From the IMG/VR virus record IMGVR_UViG_3300021378_001331, positions 1 through 21,532 of that record: DNA of 21,532 bases, one strand, 5' to 3'. Position numbers and translations under genes: made by a program. Source of the stretch: a virus. Below are positions 3,174 to 16,100 of the stretch, one piece after another. Numbering within the stretch: position 1 is the first letter of the stretch; each line of letters begins with the position of its first letter. The notes below the pieces were generated by a model. That model was not told where the DNA came from. It worked only from the letters and a program-made list of their open reading frames with translations, and did no database searches.

Positions 3174-3181
3174 GATAAATA
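3174..3181 (+). promoter_or_regulatory. T4-type late promoter, predicted leaderless
   Basis: GATAAATA, a one-base variant of the T4 late consensus TATAAATA, is followed by five bases (GTAGT) and then the ATG at 3187. With T4 spacing (motif at -13 to -6) the transcript would begin at the A of ATG. There is no Shine-Dalgarno in the gap. Confidence 0.7.
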
Positions 3182-4709: not shown

Positions 4710-7508
4710 ATGGCAACATTATCATCACCTGGAGTAAGTGTAACAGTATCAGACGAGAGTTTTTATGCTCCTGCTGGTGCTGGAAGTGTACCTTTAATCG
4801 TTATTGCTACGGCACAGGACAAATCAAGTCCAGACGGTTCAGGTATATCAGCATATACAACTTCAGCAACAGCCGGAAAACTTTATCGAGTTTCTAGCCA
4901 AAGAGAGTTACTACAAAATTATGGTAATCCAGAATTTAAATCAAGCGGATTAACACAATTACACGGTAGCGAACAGAATGAATACGGTCTTTTATCAGCA
5001 TACAGTTTCTTAGGTATAGCCAATAGTGCATACGTTTTAAGAGCAGACGTTGATTTAAATGACTTATCACCATCTGCAACTGCACCTACATCTAAACCTG
5101 CTAACGGTAGTTACTGGTTAGATACATCAACATCAGTAATTGGTGTTAAAAAATGGGACGGTTCTGCATGGGTAAAACAAACAGTCAAAGTTCCAGCAAG
5201 TACAGATCTTACTGTTGGAGATATTCCAAAAGCATCATACGGTATGAAAAATGACTATGCAGTTGTATATTTTACAACAGCAGGTGCTACAAAGTCAGAC
5301 ATTAAAGTTTACCAAAAAACTAATGACACTACTTGGGACGTAATTGGTGATTCAGGTTGGGGAACTAGAACTTCTTCAGCAGATTTCCAAATAGGTGATC
5401 ACAGTGATTTACCTTCCACAAGACAAGGTGGTGGTTCACTAGTAGCAGGCGATGTATTCTTACAACAGAATTCATTAAGTAATGGTACCGATTTTAAAGT
5501 TAAACTATACAATAGCAACACTGGTTTATTTACAGACCAGACTGTATATGCAAGAAAAAGCATGTCAGATGCATATGGTACTAGTTTTCATGGTTCTAGC
5601 CCAGTTGTTGGAGATCTATTTGTAGATGTTGCAGGTGTTGGACAAGACAACGACTATGCATGGTTTACACCTAAAAGACATAACGGTAATAGCACTATTA
5701 GTGCAGAAAGTACAGCGGCATTAGACGGTTCTGAAGTTGTTATTTCATCACATGCGGCTAAAGTTAGTTTGATTATGAGAGTTAATGACGGTTCAAATGT
5801 TAATGTAACATTTACAACTGATACAGATGCAAACGGTAATGCAAGTGTTGATGACATGGTTATTGATATCAATACAGCACTAGCGGCGGCATCAAATGCA
5901 ACTAACTCAGCAAATGTTATTGCTTCTAATAATAATGGTAAGTTAAACATTTATAATAGTGATGGTAAAGATATTTTGCTTATGGCAGGTAACGTTTCTG
6001 GATTCGGTCCTGCACAACTTAACCTAACTGCAGATGTTCCTTACAGTAACTTTGAAGCATTAAGTTTCACAGCAAAAGCAACAGAATTAACTGGTGACTT
6101 AGCAGAAGGAATGCTATGGTATGACGCAACTGTAAGTACAAGCAAAGTTGATATTCTTTATAATAATGCAGGTTCTTGGGCAACTTATACAGGTGATGTA
6201 CAAGTTACTTCTACACAACCTACAAAACAAGCAGACGGTACTTCTTTACAGGTTAACGATTTGTGGATTGACGGTAGTGATTTAGAAAACTATCCTAAAA
6301 TTTACAAATATAGTTCTGCAAATGAATGGGTATTAGTTGACAATTCAGATCAACTTACACCAGCAGGTATAGTATTTGGTGACTTTAGAGCAACAAAAGC
6401 CGGTGCATTAATTAGTGAAGCAAATGGCCTTCCATCACCTACACTATATCCAAGTAACATCTTAGCATGGAACAAAATGGCAAGTGGCGGTAATGTCAAG
6501 AAATACGATAGTGCTTCTGGACTATGGAAAGACTACAGCGGTAATAAAGCAGATGGCTCACCTCACATGTTGAGAAAGGCACAGAGAAAAGTTATTGTAA
6601 CAGCACTTCAGGCGGCTCTTACTGCAAACCAAGATATCAGAAACGAAACAAACCGTTTCAATATTGTAGCAGTTCCAGGGTATCCTGAACTAGCAGATGA
6701 GATGATATCACTTGGTACAGATCGTAAGAATACAGTATTTAGTGTTATAGATGCACCATTAAGATTGGCCGCAGACGCAACAAGTACTTCAAACTGGATT
6801 AATAACAATGCAGTTACAACTGAAAATGGAGAAGACGGTTTAGTTACTAATTCACCATATGCGGCTGTTTACTATCCACATGGTTTATCAAGTAATCTAG
6901 ACGGTTCAAGTGTTATGGTTCCTGCTTCACATATGGCATTGAGAACATTAGCATTTAACGATCAGGTGGCTTTCCCATGGTTTGCACCAGCAGGATTCCA
7001 AAGAGGATTAGTAAGTAATGCTTCTGGAACAGGTTATCTTGACGCAACAACTAGCGAATTTGTAGCAGTTGCTTTAAGTGAAGGACAAAGAGATAGTCTT
7101 TACACTAACAAGATTAACCCTATTGGAAACTTCCCAGGCAGAGGAATTGCAGTATTTGGTCAAAAGACTTTAAACTCAGTTTCAAGTGCATTGGATAGAG
7201 TAAATGTTGCTAGACTTGTTGTTTATCTACGTGAACAGTTAGACGACGCAGTTAAGCCATTCTTGTTTGAACCAAACGATGAAGTAACAAGATCAAATGC
7301 TAAAGTAGTTGTTGATAGACTACTTGGTGAACTTGTTTCTCAACGTGGATTGTTTGACTTTGTTACAGTTTGTGACACAACAAACAATACAGCGGCAAGA
7401 ATTGATAGAAACGAATTGCATATTGACATAGCGATACAGCCTGTTAAAGCAGTTGAGTTTATATACATTCCAATTAGAATCCAAAATACATTGGGACAAA
7501 CAGGTTAA
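4710..7508 (+). CDS. 18: Tail sheath protein gp18
   Basis: 932 aa contractile tail sheath. The N-terminus (SSPGVSVTVSDES) and the C-terminal region hold the sheath hallmarks: QRGLVSNASG, LYTNKINPIGNFPGRGIAVFG, SALDRVNVARLVVYL, and a final strand region AVEFIYIPIRIQ used for subunit interlocking. T4 gp18 has 659 residues; the extra length sits at about residues 120-560. There, W/D-containing modules recur: 126-155 (NGSYWLDTS, KKWDGSAW), 463-492 (GMLWYDATV, NAGSW) and 503-542 (NDLWIDGSD, SANEW). These probably form protruding domains on the tail surface. A strong Shine-Dalgarno AGGAG (4699-4703) is six bases before ATG. The gene has its own late promoter and a terminator behind it, so it is expressed as a strong monocistronic unit. 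Confidence 0.93.
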   Translation: MATLSSPGVSVTVSDESFYAPAGAGSVPLIVIATAQDKSSPDGSGISAYTTSATAGKLYRVSSQRELLQNYGNPEFKSSGLTQLHGSEQNEYGLLSAYSFLGIANSAYVLRADVDLNDLSPSATAPTSKPANGSYWLDTSTSVIGVKKWDGSAWVKQTVKVPASTDLTVGDIPKASYGMKNDYAVVYFTTAGATKSDIKVYQKTNDTTWDVIGDSGWGTRTSSADFQIGDHSDLPSTRQGGGSLVAGDVFLQQNSLSNGTDFKVKLYNSNTGLFTDQTVYARKSMSDAYGTSFHGSSPVVGDLFVDVAGVGQDNDYAWFTPKRHNGNSTISAESTAALDGSEVVISSHAAKVSLIMRVNDGSNVNVTFTTDTDANGNASVDDMVIDINTALAAASNATNSANVIASNNNGKLNIYNSDGKDILLMAGNVSGFGPAQLNLTADVPYSNFEALSFTAKATELTGDLAEGMLWYDATVSTSKVDILYNNAGSWATYTGDVQVTSTQPTKQADGTSLQVNDLWIDGSDLENYPKIYKYSSANEWVLVDNSDQLTPAGIVFGDFRATKAGALISEANGLPSPTLYPSNILAWNKMASGGNVKKYDSASGLWKDYSGNKADGSPHMLRKAQRKVIVTALQAALTANQDIRNETNRFNIVAVPGYPELADEMISLGTDRKNTVFSVIDAPLRLAADATSTSNWINNNAVTTENGEDGLVTNSPYAAVYYPHGLSSNLDGSSVMVPASHMALRTLAFNDQVAFPWFAPAGFQRGLVSNASGTGYLDATTSEFVAVALSEGQRDSLYTNKINPIGNFPGRGIAVFGQKTLNSVSSALDRVNVARLVVYLREQLDDAVKPFLFEPNDEVTRSNAKVVVDRLLGELVSQRGLFDFVTVCDTTNNTAARIDRNELHIDIAIQPVKAVEFIYIPIRIQNTLGQTG

Positions 7509-10033: not shown

Positions 10034-10504
10034 ATGGCCAAATATCAACAAGGCTTATATGAAGTTGCAAATACATCAAAGTTTGTAGGCACCAAACCAC
10101 CTAAGTACAGAAGCAGTTGGGAATTAGCATTTATGCGTATGTGCGATAGTCATCCTAATATACTTAAATGGGCAAGTGAAAATGTAAAGATTCCTTATAG
10201 AAGTCCTGTTGATGGCAAGTATCACAACTATGTTCCTGACTTTATGATACAATATCAAGACAAAGATGGCACTGAACATGTAGAACTTATAGAGATAAAA
10301 CCTGCTAATCAAACTACATTAGAGAATGCTCGTAGCAGAGGACAAGCCATACAAACACATATAAACGCCGCTAAGTGGACTGCGGCACAAGAATGGTGTA
10401 AACGTAAAGGCATACGTTTTAAAGTTATTAACGAAGATCAAATATTCTCAAATAAAAAACCTCGTAATAAAAAACAACGTATTGCTAAGAAGAGAGTCAA
10501 ATGA
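10034..10504 (+). CDS. 4: Head completion nuclease gp4-like
   Basis: 156 aa, close to T4 gp4 (150 aa), a head-completion protein whose family has been described as a nuclease. A PD-(D/E)xK nuclease core is visible: Glu30 in RSSWELAFMRMCD, Asp69 in YVPDFMIQY, and Glu87-Ile-Lys89 in VELIEIKPA, followed by a helix rich in Lys, Arg and Gln (AIQTHINAAKWTAAQEWC). The C-terminus is strongly basic (NKKPRNKKQRIAKKRVK), fitting DNA contact. The enzyme probably acts on DNA at the packaged head before tail joining. It has no Shine-Dalgarno and sits one base after the previous stop; its stop overlaps the next ATG (ATGA). Confidence 0.85.
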   Translation: MAKYQQGLYEVANTSKFVGTKPPKYRSSWELAFMRMCDSHPNILKWASENVKIPYRSPVDGKYHNYVPDFMIQYQDKDGTEHVELIEIKPANQTTLENARSRGQAIQTHINAAKWTAAQEWCKRKGIRFKVINEDQIFSNKKPRNKKQRIAKKRVK

Positions 10505-10996: not shown

Positions 10997-11479
10997 ATGA
11001 CTAAAAAATTAGAAGAAGAATTCAATTTACCTCCTATCGAAGAAGTAACTAATACTGACGAGGAAGTTGTACCTACTGTAGAAGAAACACAGGAAGTCAT
11101 AGAGGAAGTACAAGGTGCTTTAAGTGTTAGTGAAAAAATTAATTTAGCATTTAAAGAAGTTAAAGGTTTAGAAAGTCACGAAGTTGAAATGAACGACATA
11201 GCCAAGAAGGCTATAGAAAGTTATGAGCAACTGATGAGTTTAGGCATGAATGTTAGTGATATGGCGGCTGGTAAAGTATTTGCAGAAGCAAGTAACATGT
11301 TAAAGATAGCCTTAGATGCCAGTGATGCTAAAACAAAAGCAAAGTTACAACAAATAGACCTAATGCTTAAAAAAGCAAGAATAGATAAGTTTGATAACAA
11401 GGGCACAGAAACAGAAGCCGTTCAAGCAACTGTATTCGATAGAAATGATTTATTAAAAATTATTAAAGGCGAAAGTTAA
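10997..11479 (+). CDS. 16: Terminase small subunit gp16
   Basis: 160 aa, T4 gp16 is 164 aa. A very acidic N-terminus (residues 5-40) precedes two long helices (MNDIAKKAIESYEQLMSLGM and KVFAEASNMLKIALDASDAK) that fit the coiled-coil oligomerisation core. A C-terminal ATVFDRNDLLKII segment recalls the NATVF motif of T4 gp16 and probably contacts gp17. The small subunit recognises concatemeric DNA and regulates the large terminase. It is separated from gp17 here by about 3 kb with four other genes, whereas T4 has them adjacent. It is preceded by a late promoter with no room for a leader. Its stop overlaps tail-to-tail with a minus-strand gene. Confidence 0.75.
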   Translation: MTKKLEEEFNLPPIEEVTNTDEEVVPTVEETQEVIEEVQGALSVSEKINLAFKEVKGLESHEVEMNDIAKKAIESYEQLMSLGMNVSDMAAGKVFAEASNMLKIALDASDAKTKAKLQQIDLMLKKARIDKFDNKGTETEAVQATVFDRNDLLKIIKGES

Positions 11480-11586
11480 GGCCTAATCCACTCACCGTTT
11501 TTAAAAACAACAACTTCACCATACTGGTCTAAAGTGTACTCTCCTTCTGTAGGATTTTGGGGTTCTCTTACTTTAATTTTTGACAT
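11476..11586 (-). CDS. Minus-strand 36 aa protein, function unknown
   Basis: ATG is at 11586-11584 and the stop is TAA at 11478-11476 on the minus strand. The product is 36 aa and reads as a plausible folded mini-domain: SKIKVREPQNPTEGEY, then LDQYGEVVVFKNGEWIRP, i.e. a Gly-Glu turn, a VVVF strand and an NGEWI strand. Upstream on the minus strand is GCTAAATA (plus positions 11592-11599) followed by exactly five bases and ATG, the same geometry as the predicted leaderless late promoters of the plus-strand genes. It fills the gap between gp16 and the 231 aa gene, converging on gp16 with a two-base stop overlap. It is the only minus-strand gene I support in the window. Too short for firm identification. 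Confidence 0.65.
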   Translation of the reverse strand: MSKIKVREPQNPTEGEYTLDQYGEVVVFKNGEWIRP

Positions 11587-11616: not shown

Positions 11617-11624
11617 GATAAATA
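11617..11624 (+). promoter_or_regulatory. T4-type late promoter of the 231 aa gene
   Basis: GATAAATA lies 22 bases before the ATG at 11647. With T4 spacing the leader is about 17 bases and contains GGAG (11636-11639) seven bases before ATG. Confidence 0.7.
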
Positions 11625-11646
11625 AGTGTAACAACGGAGTTTAAAT

Positions 11647-12342
11647 ATGAAACTTAAAGAATATATAACAGAATCATTTAACAAAGAATACGGCTATAGA
11701 GTAAAGTTTGCCGCTGATTGTGGTTCTGATCAAATGGACATGTTAGAAAAATGTCTAGACAAATATAACTTAGTAAGTGCTACACCTTTTAAAAGAACAC
11801 CTATTGAAGAGAATCCAAAAGAATTTTACAGAGCAAAAGGTACACAATGTACATCAGAAGTATGTAGTACTGACATTATCTTAAAATACCCAGTCAACGA
11901 AAGAATACTAGAAGTATGGCTTGCAGTAAACATGGGCATGGATCACGAAAGAGTTCTTGCTTATGGTGTTAAAGATCCTAGAAGAATAGAATCTGAAATG
12001 GCTGAGATGAGAGCAAAAGAAGATGTAGACAGACAAGTTTCAGAAGAAGATGCATTACTAAACGATGAAAGCATGGAACATTACGAAAATGAAAATGCAG
12101 ATGTTGATTTTAAAGCAAACTTCTTTGGTGAAGAATACAATAAAAAGTTTTTAGAGGAATTAGCAAAAATTAAAGCAGAAAAAGGCGCAGACTACTTCCG
12201 TAACTATCCTAGTAAAGACGAATTAATGGGCGACGATCTAGCAGAATTAGGCTCTCAAATACACGGATTACCGAATATGGGTAGAGGTACAGAGTCAAGT
12301 AAAACTGTTGATGTTATCTCCCAAAGTAGTAAGAGGTCGTAA
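11647..12342 (+). CDS. Putative internal head/core protein with capsid-targeting N-terminus
   Basis: 231 aa. The first ten residues, MKLKEYITES, closely match the pattern of the T4 capsid-targeting sequence (MKTYQEFIAE in the internal proteins). They contain ITE, which fits the (L/I)-x-E rule of the gp21 prohead protease, so cleavage after Glu9 is predicted. An alpha/beta domain follows at about residues 16-105 (YRVKFAADCG, MLEKCLDKY, STDIILKYPV) with Cys25, 36, 68 and 73. A long charged helical region comes next (RIESEMAEMRAKEDVDRQ) and ends in a Ser-rich tail. It has its own leadered late promoter with a Shine-Dalgarno GGAG. The next gene starts two bases after its stop. The role is inferred; the family is not recognised. 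Confidence 0.6.
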   Translation: MKLKEYITESFNKEYGYRVKFAADCGSDQMDMLEKCLDKYNLVSATPFKRTPIEENPKEFYRAKGTQCTSEVCSTDIILKYPVNERILEVWLAVNMGMDHERVLAYGVKDPRRIESEMAEMRAKEDVDRQVSEEDALLNDESMEHYENENADVDFKANFFGEEYNKKFLEELAKIKAEKGADYFRNYPSKDELMGDDLAELGSQIHGLPNMGRGTESSKTVDVISQSSKRS

Positions 12343-12344
12343 AA

Positions 12345-13628
12345 ATGGCAGATAAGAATATTGTAGAGGCTGAACCAGTAATGAAAACTGGTGATATTAG
12401 TAGAATTAGAACATTAGGCGGAGCAGAAATGGCTGGCCTAATTACTAGTAGATTACAAAGTGCTAGAGCTCATTTACAGCAAGGTAAGGCACTACCAGCC
12501 GCAGAATCAGAACAAATAGAACTATTATTAGGCCTTTTAGACCCAATGATTGAAGCAGGGCATTTACCTAAGTTAATACAATTAAATAAAGTAGCAACTA
12601 AAGTAGTAGCCGATAAAAAAGCGGCAATGCAAAAAGATCTTGATGTACCTGCATGGCAAAGACAAGGTAAAACAAGAGCAGATATGGGTATCAATGATCC
12701 TGATGGCGGCAAAATACCAGGGCCTAATGAAATTGCTTCCGGACAAATAGAATCTATAGAAGAAGAACTTTCAAGAAATGCTGTAGAAAAAATGGTAGGT
12801 GATGATCCTGCATTAGCACAAAAGGTAATGATGGTTTACGATATGATGAAGAAAGGAGAGGGAATTCCACCTTCACATTCACAATCGTTTTTTCAGTTCA
12901 TTAAACCTGTTTTAGATAGTTTAACTGGCACAGATGCAGTTGCTAGTATTACAAGACATAAAGAAAAATTTGCACAAGATACACAACCACAAGATCAACA
13001 AGATCAACAAGATCAACAAGAACCACAACAACCTAATCAAGATGATCAACAACTTCAAGATATGGGACAAGAAAAAACACATAAAGATTTAGGAAAAGTT
13101 AGAGTTATTAGTTCTACTATGCCTAAAGCAGATGATGAGGCTATTGTTCAAACAGATGATGGTAAAGTAGTAAAAGTGAAACTAGCAGATTTAGAAGAAG
13201 GTATGGAAATAGAAACAATGGATTTAGATGAATTAAAAATGTTAGCAGGTCTTTCAGAAGCAATGAGCGATGCTTATGGTGATGCTGATTCTCCTGAAAA
13301 TGTTGAAGTTCAAGGTTCAGTAGAATTTAAGCAACATAAAAATACTGATAAAGGTTCAGTAAGTATTGAAGCAAGTGGCGATGATATGCAAGAACTTGCG
13401 AAGGTACTTAAAATGGCAGGGCTCACTTTACCTCAAGACATGTATAAAGATGAACCAGAAGCAGATGATGAACCAGAATCACATGATGAACCTGAAGTAC
13501 AAGTAGTAGAGCCAGATAGTGATGAAGAATCACCATGTGGCACTAGCGATGCAGACGCTTCATACTCAACAGATAAAGAAGTTTTAGTAAACTATATTAA
13601 AGATAAATTAGCAAAACGACTTTCATAA
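12345..13628 (+). CDS. Acidic, Gln-rich phage protein, candidate head core/structural protein
   Basis: 427 aa with an overall acidic composition. An N-terminal helical domain (residues about 1-95) and a middle helical part (to about 205) are followed by a Gln/Asp-rich linker, encoded by three tandem 9-base repeats at 12991-13017 (QDQ units). A compact strand-rich module comes next (GKVRVISSTMP, IVQTDDGKVVKVKLADLEEGMEI), then a second module, three DEPE repeats at about residues 369-385, and a short C-terminal helix (VLVNYIKDKLAKRLS). No enzyme motif is visible. The acidity, repeats and position behind a capsid-targeted protein fit an internal head or scaffold-like component, but I do not recognise the family. 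It is translated with the preceding gene (2-base gap, AGAGG upstream). Confidence 0.6.
   Translation: MADKNIVEAEPVMKTGDISRIRTLGGAEMAGLITSRLQSARAHLQQGKALPAAESEQIELLLGLLDPMIEAGHLPKLIQLNKVATKVVADKKAAMQKDLDVPAWQRQGKTRADMGINDPDGGKIPGPNEIASGQIESIEEELSRNAVEKMVGDDPALAQKVMMVYDMMKKGEGIPPSHSQSFFQFIKPVLDSLTGTDAVASITRHKEKFAQDTQPQDQQDQQDQQEPQQPNQDDQQLQDMGQEKTHKDLGKVRVISSTMPKADDEAIVQTDDGKVVKVKLADLEEGMEIETMDLDELKMLAGLSEAMSDAYGDADSPENVEVQGSVEFKQHKNTDKGSVSIEASGDDMQELAKVLKMAGLTLPQDMYKDEPEADDEPESHDEPEVQVVEPDSDEESPCGTSDADASYSTDKEVLVNYIKDKLAKRLS
12991..13017 (+). repeat. Three tandem 9-base repeats in a Gln/Asp-rich linker
   Basis: The unit AAGATCAAC occurs three times in a row, with a partial fourth copy, and codes for a QDQ-type linker. 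Such in-frame units can change number by slippage without breaking the gene. Confidence 0.8.
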
Positions 13629-14516: not shown

Positions 14517-16100
14517 ATGGCACGAGGAACAGCAGATACCAGTCTGGTTAAACAAGGCTATAGTAAAGTCGCATATACTCCAGATACTATACAAGATTTT
14601 AAGAATTGTGCAGATCCTGTGGGTGGTCCTCTGTATTTTATGACTAATCATGTAAAAATACAACATCCTACAAAAGGTGGTATAGATTTTGATCCTTTTA
14701 AATATCAGTTAGACTTAATAGAAAACTATAATAATTACAGATACAGTATTAATATGCTGGGCAGACAGATGGGTAAAACTACTGTAGCGGCAGGATACTT
14801 GCTGTGGTATGCTATGTTTAAGCCTGACAGTACAATATTAGTTGCGGCCCACAAACAAGCAGGTGCTCAGGAAATTATGCAACGTATTAGATATGCATAT
14901 GAAAGTGTGCCAGATCATATTAGAGCCGGTGTAACAGAATACAACAAAGGTTCTATGTCGTTTGATAATGGAAGTAGAATAGTAGCAAGTACAACAACAG
15001 AAAATACTGGTAGGGGTATGTCACTTACATTAGTATACTTAGATGAGTTTGCATTTGTGCCACAACGAATTGCGAGTGAATTCTGGACTTCTTTATCTCC
15101 CACTTTGGCAACTGGTGGTAAATGTATTATTACATCAACACCTAATAGTGATGAAGATACTTTTGCTATGATATGGAATCAAGCAAATAAACTTTTTGAT
15201 GAACATGGTAACGAGCAAGATGTAGGTGTTAATGGATTCAAACCTATGTTAGCGATCTGGGACCAACATCCAGATAGAGATGCCATATGGGCAACAGAAG
15301 AAAGAGGCAGAATTGGTGAAGAACGTTTTAAACGTGAACACGAATGTGAATTTGTTATATATGATGAGACACTTATAGACCCTTTAAAACTATTAGAAAT
15401 GAATGGAAAGGAGCCTATACTTAAAAGTGGGCAAGTAAGATGGTATAAACACCCAACACCAGAAGGCATATATGTATTGTCTTTAGACCCAAGTACAGGA
15501 ACAGGGGGCGATAACGCCGCCATACAGGTCCTAGAATTACCAAGTATGGTACAAGTAGCAGAGTGGTGCCACAATAAAACGCCCATAGAAGGGCAAATAA
15601 AAGTTTGTATGGAGATAATGCAATACATAAAAGACCAAGGAGCACCGCAGATTTATTGGAGTGTTGAGAACAATGCTATAGGTGAAGCCGCCCTAGTTGT
15701 AATTAGAGATACTGGAGAAGAAAACTTTCCAGGGGAAATGCTACATGAACCTAAAAAGGTACAAGGCAAGAAAGGACGTAGAGGATATTACACAACACAT
15801 AAAACAAAGATAGAATCTTGTTTAAATCTTAAACGATTAATTGAACACGATAAGATTAAATTAGGCAGTAAGATGTTAATGAGTGAGTTAAAGAATTTTG
15901 TATCCACAGCAAATACCTTCAAAGCAAAACCTGGACAATCAGACGATTTAGTTATGAGCCTTACCTTAGGACTTAGAATGATAGATTTTATAAGTACCTT
16001 TGAAGACGAGGTTTATAATGCTGTAAATAGTGGTCTTGGTTGGGACGACTTTAATTCAGATGATGACGACGACTGGGATCAACCTATGCCACTTATCTAA
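14517..16100 (+). CDS. 17: Terminase large subunit gp17
   Basis: 527 aa DNA-packaging motor and nuclease (T4 gp17 610 aa). The ATPase half shows Walker A GRQMGKT (residues 82-88), Walker B LVYLDE (172-177) and the coupling motif ITSTPN (about 205-210). The RNase H-like nuclease half shows Asp324 in LSLDPSTGTGG, Glu384 in SVENNAIGE and Asp476/477 in QSDDLVMS, matching the T4 acidic triad. The very C-terminus is acidic (NSDDDDDWDQPMPLI). It assembles on the portal and translocates DNA into the prohead, working with gp16. The stop overlaps the next start by one base (TAATG). Confidence 0.96.
   Translation: MARGTADTSLVKQGYSKVAYTPDTIQDFKNCADPVGGPLYFMTNHVKIQHPTKGGIDFDPFKYQLDLIENYNNYRYSINMLGRQMGKTTVAAGYLLWYAMFKPDSTILVAAHKQAGAQEIMQRIRYAYESVPDHIRAGVTEYNKGSMSFDNGSRIVASTTTENTGRGMSLTLVYLDEFAFVPQRIASEFWTSLSPTLATGGKCIITSTPNSDEDTFAMIWNQANKLFDEHGNEQDVGVNGFKPMLAIWDQHPDRDAIWATEERGRIGEERFKREHECEFVIYDETLIDPLKLLEMNGKEPILKSGQVRWYKHPTPEGIYVLSLDPSTGTGGDNAAIQVLELPSMVQVAEWCHNKTPIEGQIKVCMEIMQYIKDQGAPQIYWSVENNAIGEAALVVIRDTGEENFPGEMLHEPKKVQGKKGRRGYYTTHKTKIESCLNLKRLIEHDKIKLGSKMLMSELKNFVSTANTFKAKPGQSDDLVMSLTLGLRMIDFISTFEDEVYNAVNSGLGWDDFNSDDDDDWDQPMPLI

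Follow-up and report, generated by a model that had tools for sequence, protein, structure and literature searches.

A candidate T4-type prohead-targeting leader on a virion protein from marine jumbo-type phages related to PA5oct

Does a 231-aa phage protein that begins MKLKEYITES (direct translation of positions 11647–11676) carry a leader that targets it to the prohead and is removed there by proteolysis, as in T4? The gene lies in a 21,532-nucleotide fragment of viral DNA, all of which was analysed and is called the window here. A first-pass annotation, made from the letters alone, had proposed that this uncharacterised protein has a T4-style capsid-targeting sequence (CTS), is packed in the prohead, trimmed after Glu9 and possibly injected with the DNA. 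We examined the gene, its setting, its homologues and the leader itself; the features are collected in Table 1.

Table 1. Position and basis of the features discussed, in window coordinates.
Feature	Position	Strand	Basis
231-aa virion structural protein, PHROG_14802 family	11647..12342	+	Profile match and homologues
Ribosome-binding site GGAG	11636..11639	+	Direct reading; 7 nt before ATG of the 231-aa ORF
GATAAATA, T4-late-promoter-like motif	11617..11624	+	22 nt before ATG of the 231-aa ORF
CTS-like leader MKLKEYITE, residues 1–9, predicted amphipathic helix	11647..11673	+	Translation, AlphaFold, column statistics over 50 homologues
Predicted prohead-protease site Glu9/Ser10 in I7-T8-E9-S10	11671..11676	+	Conservation
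Predicted ferredoxin-like alpha/beta domain, about residues 15–108	11689..11970	+	AlphaFold; E-H-E-E-(H)-E-H-E, pLDDT mostly 60–79
gp4-like head completion protein (TnsA-like nuclease fold), syntenic anchor	10034..10504	+	PF08722, E 4.6e-22
Downstream neighbour, 427 aa, begins MADKNIVEAEP	12345..13628	+	Adjoins the 231-aa ORF
Large terminase (gp17-like)	14517..16100	+	PF03237, E 5.5e-17

The 21.5-kb window comes from a jumbo-type myophage and carries genes for its neck, tail and DNA packaging: a head-tail adaptor, a dNMP kinase, sheath, tubes, gp4, the 231-aa ORF and the large terminase. A gene for a ssDNA-binding protein follows the terminase, and then comes an ORF whose counterpart in G013, a 250-kb relative, matches the UvsX-like recombinase of Pseudomonas phage PA5oct. 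Gene order closely matches that of PA5oct, with which G013 has dozens of genes in common genome-wide, and the gp4-like gene has the same position in PA5oct, GAP32, CBB, 121Q and RaK2. Proteins of family PHROG_14802 occupy a conserved slot, with gp4 on one side and TerL or other structural genes on the other, after gp4 and one small gene. The 231-aa ORF fits this slot, two small genes separating it from gp4. The slot after gp4 is filled by the family in GAP32, Kaldavass, XaC1, Vibrio 2.275, 121Q and RaK2; Phosso has ribonucleotide reductase genes in between. On the minus strand between the 160-aa gene and the 231-aa gene (11476–11586) is a 36-aa ORF (MSKIKVREPQNPTEGEYTLDQYGEVVVFKNGEWIRP), 61–94% identical across many relatives, which is probably a real small gene in antisense orientation.

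The GATAAATA motif recurs no more than 40 nt upstream of the 231-aa gene in 42 of 47 distinct relatives. T4-late-promoter-like ATAAATA motifs also stand 1–125 nt before many other gene starts on the coding strand of the window (+ strand positions 3174, 4658, 7598, 10984, 11617, 13624, 14504, 17303 and 18794); several are 1–5 nt from the ATG and would leave almost no leader RNA.

Residues 2–144 of the product match the PHROG_14802 profile (E 5.5e-6), and PA5oct gp282 is a homologue (E 7e-8). There are 22 close relatives in IMG/VR and 88 matches among all loci searched. PA5oct gp282 is annotated 'structural protein, ESI-MS/MS', and CBB_210 was detected in phage CBB particles by mass spectrometry with 13 unique peptides and 60.5% coverage (PMC5259590). 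CBB_210 is a homologue by its record, lying directly after CBB_208 (head completion) and CBB_209 and matching GAP32_204. The family members PA5oct gp282, GAP32_204, CBB_210, RaK2 ORF047 and 121Q 557 have homologous bodies and a common genomic slot. By homology, then, the 231-aa protein is a member of a known virion protein family, and presence in the virion is shown for homologues. The description 'uncharacterised' holds for its role but not for its family, which is annotated and has members seen in virions; mass spectrometry of the PA5oct and CBB homologues supports the prediction that it is in the particle. We tentatively infer a location in the head, although the evidence would fit the neck or tail as well.

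The AlphaFold model of the full protein is poor overall (pLDDT 61). It places a helix at residues 2–11, at low pLDDT (53), ahead of the first strand at residue 15, and beyond the ferredoxin-like domain an acidic tail that is disordered or helical. Foldseek related the domain weakly to the ribosomal S6 and HPPK folds, with no match at E ≤ 0.001, and gave neither a function nor an informative structural relative; a PDB sequence search with the whole protein found no credible match. The calculated pI is 4.83, and 4.80 for the predicted mature form, so the protein is acidic.

In T4 IPIII, targeting depends chiefly on residues 4 and 7 and processing on residues 8 and 10; an Asp at residue 10 prevents processing yet leaves targeting intact (PMC9026906). 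The T4 sequences read from NC_000866 are MKTYQEFIAE, cut before A, for IPII and IPIII, and MAKINELLRE, cut before S, for gp24. The first-pass annotation had aligned MKLKEYITES with MKTYQEFIAE position by position. Without gaps this match is poor, with T4 Y4, F7, I8 and E10 opposite K, I, T and S. After a shift of one residue the same four determinants stand opposite L3, Y6, I7 and E9, and all four agree in type. Because the match appears only after the shift, the alignment was off by one while its substance survives. The targeting positions 4 and 7 then correspond to L3 and Y6, which are L/F and Y/F/L/I/H across 50 homologues, and the annotated protease site stands as a valid (L/I)-x-E motif, ITE followed by the small residue S.

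The resemblance to IPII and IPIII therefore lies in a short N-terminal amphipathic leader with hydrophobic, aromatic, Ile and Glu residues at the mapped positions and a small residue after the cut, although the window leader is one residue shorter. The proteins behind the leaders differ: T4 internal proteins are basic and variable, whereas the window protein is acidic, conserved and encoded in a structural module, its cut being predicted. The propeptide of T4 gp24 has the same geometry and also Ser at P1′, and is near-identical in style to leaders MKINDILKE and MKIKDILVE of relatives; gp24 is a shell protein at the capsid vertex, and the likeness concerns the leader. T4 Alt is cut near its N-terminus after ITE-6 (PMC5694885), at an identical tripeptide, but Alt is an injected ADP-ribosyltransferase and no such domain was found in the 231-aa protein.

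Could so short a match arise by chance, the N-terminus being simply the first helix of a structural domain and irrelevant to targeting? Taken alone, the window gives no significant signal: one of its 24 ORFs has such a leader, where internal windows predict 0.12 (P = 0.11). Conservation lifts the leader above chance, since (I/L)-x-E-(S/A) is kept in all of the 50 distinct marine homologues, a set with 25 different leaders. Residue 3 (P7) is L or F and P4 mostly Y; P3 is I or L, P2 varies among A, T, S, N and K, P1 is E in 50/50 and P1′ is S or A in 50/50. In a 29-sequence alignment E9 is the sole invariant column of residues 2–12. The AlphaFold helix also lies outside the domain core, and similar leaders recur on other virion-module genes (below). 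Chance resemblance is accordingly improbable, even though the loose pattern [LI]xE is unenriched at the N-termini of PA5oct virion proteins (11/93 versus 26/274 others, P = 0.32).

Fixed P1 and P1′ with a free P2 is the pattern that a protease of (L/I)xE specificity would be expected to leave, but it falls short of proof of cleavage because K13, E14 and R18, past the site, are as invariant as E9 in the 50 marine homologues. The closest rival to a cleaved T4-type leader is an uncut one: a docking helix for a scaffold, portal or neck partner, still present on the mature protein, with (I/L)xE(S/A) as incidental helix chemistry. Equal conservation of residues beyond the site fits such a helix better than a disposable propeptide. 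So does the wider family, across which the site is not kept: most PHROG_14802 proteins have no Glu at P1, while the marine lineage always has it. Among distant homologues, Glu is kept in GAP32, CBB, 121Q and Vibrio 2.275, with LTE at the site in CBB and 121Q; P1 is Asp in RaK2, Kaldavass and XbC2 (LTD), BF and Hallingskeid (LID) and PA5oct (YYD), Ser in Munch (LTS) and Phosso (LSS), and Ala in XaC1 (LTA). In RaK2-like phages and PA5oct the amphipathic start thus persists as P1 drifts, on homologues that are virion proteins, and the distant homologues that lose the Glu keep the helix. These proteins have no Glu, and in T4 an Asp there prevents processing (PMC9026906), so the family does not share cutting as a trait; cleavage would at best be confined to some of its members. 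Proteins at the gp67 position of relatives G010 and G013 likewise start MRLDEF or MRLIEF without LxE. Against an uncut helix stand the fixed Glu and Ser/Ala in 50/50 marine homologues beside a variable P2, and the recurrence of Glu at residue 9 on non-homologous proteins that begin MKINDIITE, MKIKDILVE, MKINDILKE and MLIRDIINE. We regard the uncut helix as a serious contender, though somewhat less probable than cleavage in the marine lineage. In one close relative (L010, around 5147–5180) a 27-nt deletion between two AAAGAATA repeats removes KEYITESFN, the site included; it may be a natural variant or an assembly error.

A cut at Glu9 would require a prohead protease. The window ends short of the protease module, and the gene was seen in relatives: S77 proteases (PF03420) are encoded in G010 (E 1.4e-29), G013 (3.3e-27) and G015 (7.8e-26), and a head maturation protease is annotated in PA5oct.

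Other proteins with MKLxEY-like starts, sought in relatives as the first-pass annotation had suggested, were found in the virion module. In PA5oct they include MKINDIITE (then G), on an MS-detected protein adjoining the portal, and MKIKDILVE (then S), also MS-detected. G005 has MKINDILKE (then A) and MLIRDIINE (then T), G009 has MKINHILKE (then Y), and G013 has MNLNDVISE (then A), MLIKDIITE (then T) and MLIREIVTE (then G). Starts of the form M[KRE]h-x-[DENQ]h are found on 7/93 MS-detected versus 2/274 other proteins of PA5oct (P = 0.0013), and in G013 on the products of 6/50 structural-block versus 2/224 other genes (P = 0.0006), both P values being optimistic because the motif was picked after the data had been seen and homologous families recur in the two sets. 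The strict full pattern, with Glu at residue 9, is weakly enriched in PA5oct (2/93 MS-detected versus 0/274 others). In the pooled relatives the strict T4 pattern was not significant (2/145 versus 1.31 expected); only narrower variants and the M[KRE] motif were. As a positive control, the T4-derived pattern applied to 73 kb of T4 recovered IPII, IPIII and gp24. It also matched gp2 (MAIFQIINES; L141:12062–12886, minus strand) and gp61.1 (MKTFKEFIKE; L140 near 19130, minus strand).

In relatives, the slot downstream of the 231-aa gene often encodes CTS-like leaders, such as MKINHILKE, MKIDNFITEA and MNLNDVISEA, and 11 of 47 distinct N-termini there match h-x-x-h-h-x-E; these cannot be counted as independent because the slot proteins join in one loose cluster. 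It is a hypervariable virion-module slot, with products of 126–600 aa and N-termini that differ between close relatives. Elsewhere, between gp4 and a PHROG_16202-like gene, lies the gene for a leader-bearing 221-aa protein, MKITEI...NDTWYHGTPSKKG (L037:12223–12888, minus strand; G005 50223–50888). Its WYHGTP motif suggested an ADP-ribosyltransferase, YHGTP being reminiscent of such enzymes, but this reading was dropped as no family match was found.

The resemblance to T4 also raised two narrower readings. One is an injected internal protein of the IPI–III or Alt type, packed with the DNA, trimmed and delivered to act in the host. A CTS-type leader and homologues in the virion would both suit it. 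T4 internal proteins, however, are basic and poorly conserved (PMC9026906), whereas this protein has a pI of 4.8 and is conserved, holding the same slot of the structural module even in distant jumbo phages; T4 gp24 shows, moreover, that the same leader type can belong to a shell protein. The proposed injection with DNA is therefore unsupported, and we consider it slightly less probable even than a chance resemblance. The other makes the protein a relative of the T4 DNA-end protector gp2, which adjoins gp4 and has the same type of start, so that start type and neighbour gene are common to both. Profile similarity is absent (hhalign probability 0.1–0.2%), which leaves this kinship highly improbable.

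Our preferred reading, to which we give a probability of about 0.5, is that the 231-aa protein is expressed late and belongs to the virion of marine jumbo-type myophages whose lineage is related to PA5oct. Residues 1–9 would form a short amphipathic helix acting like a T4 capsid-targeting sequence, with L3 and Y6 docking the protein on the prohead core. I7-x-E9 would then be offered to a T4 gp21-type (S77) protease, which would cut between Glu9 and Ser10 during head maturation, and the ferredoxin-like domain and acidic helical tail would remain in the head. We infer the docking and the cleavage; of the two, a prohead-targeting leader is likely and trimming after Glu9 in the marine lineage is plausible from sequence conservation. 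The first-pass proposal of such a leader has in its favour the T4-matching determinants, the conserved site, the S77 protease in three relatives and the recurrence of leaders. A broader idea is offered tentatively, as doubtful: in the PA5oct-related marine jumbo lineage a leader M[KN][IL]x[DE][ILY][IL]xE, with Glu at residue 9, might mark unrelated head proteins, roughly 5–10 per genome, as a shared code for admission to the prohead and trimming, some descendants (RaK2-like) having kept the docking helix and lost the cut.

As a single observation, the leader on the 231-aa protein is ordinary. Short T4-like leaders would make a useful contrast to the giant phage SPN3US, since propeptides there are mostly much longer (PMC5694885). 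If the reading is right, the natural series of Glu, Asp, Ser and Ala at the cut site would let targeting and cleavage be told apart, sequence would serve to predict which proteins are packaged in the heads of a little-studied jumbo-phage lineage, and T4-type capsid targeting would reach phages as far from T4 as the PA5oct group.
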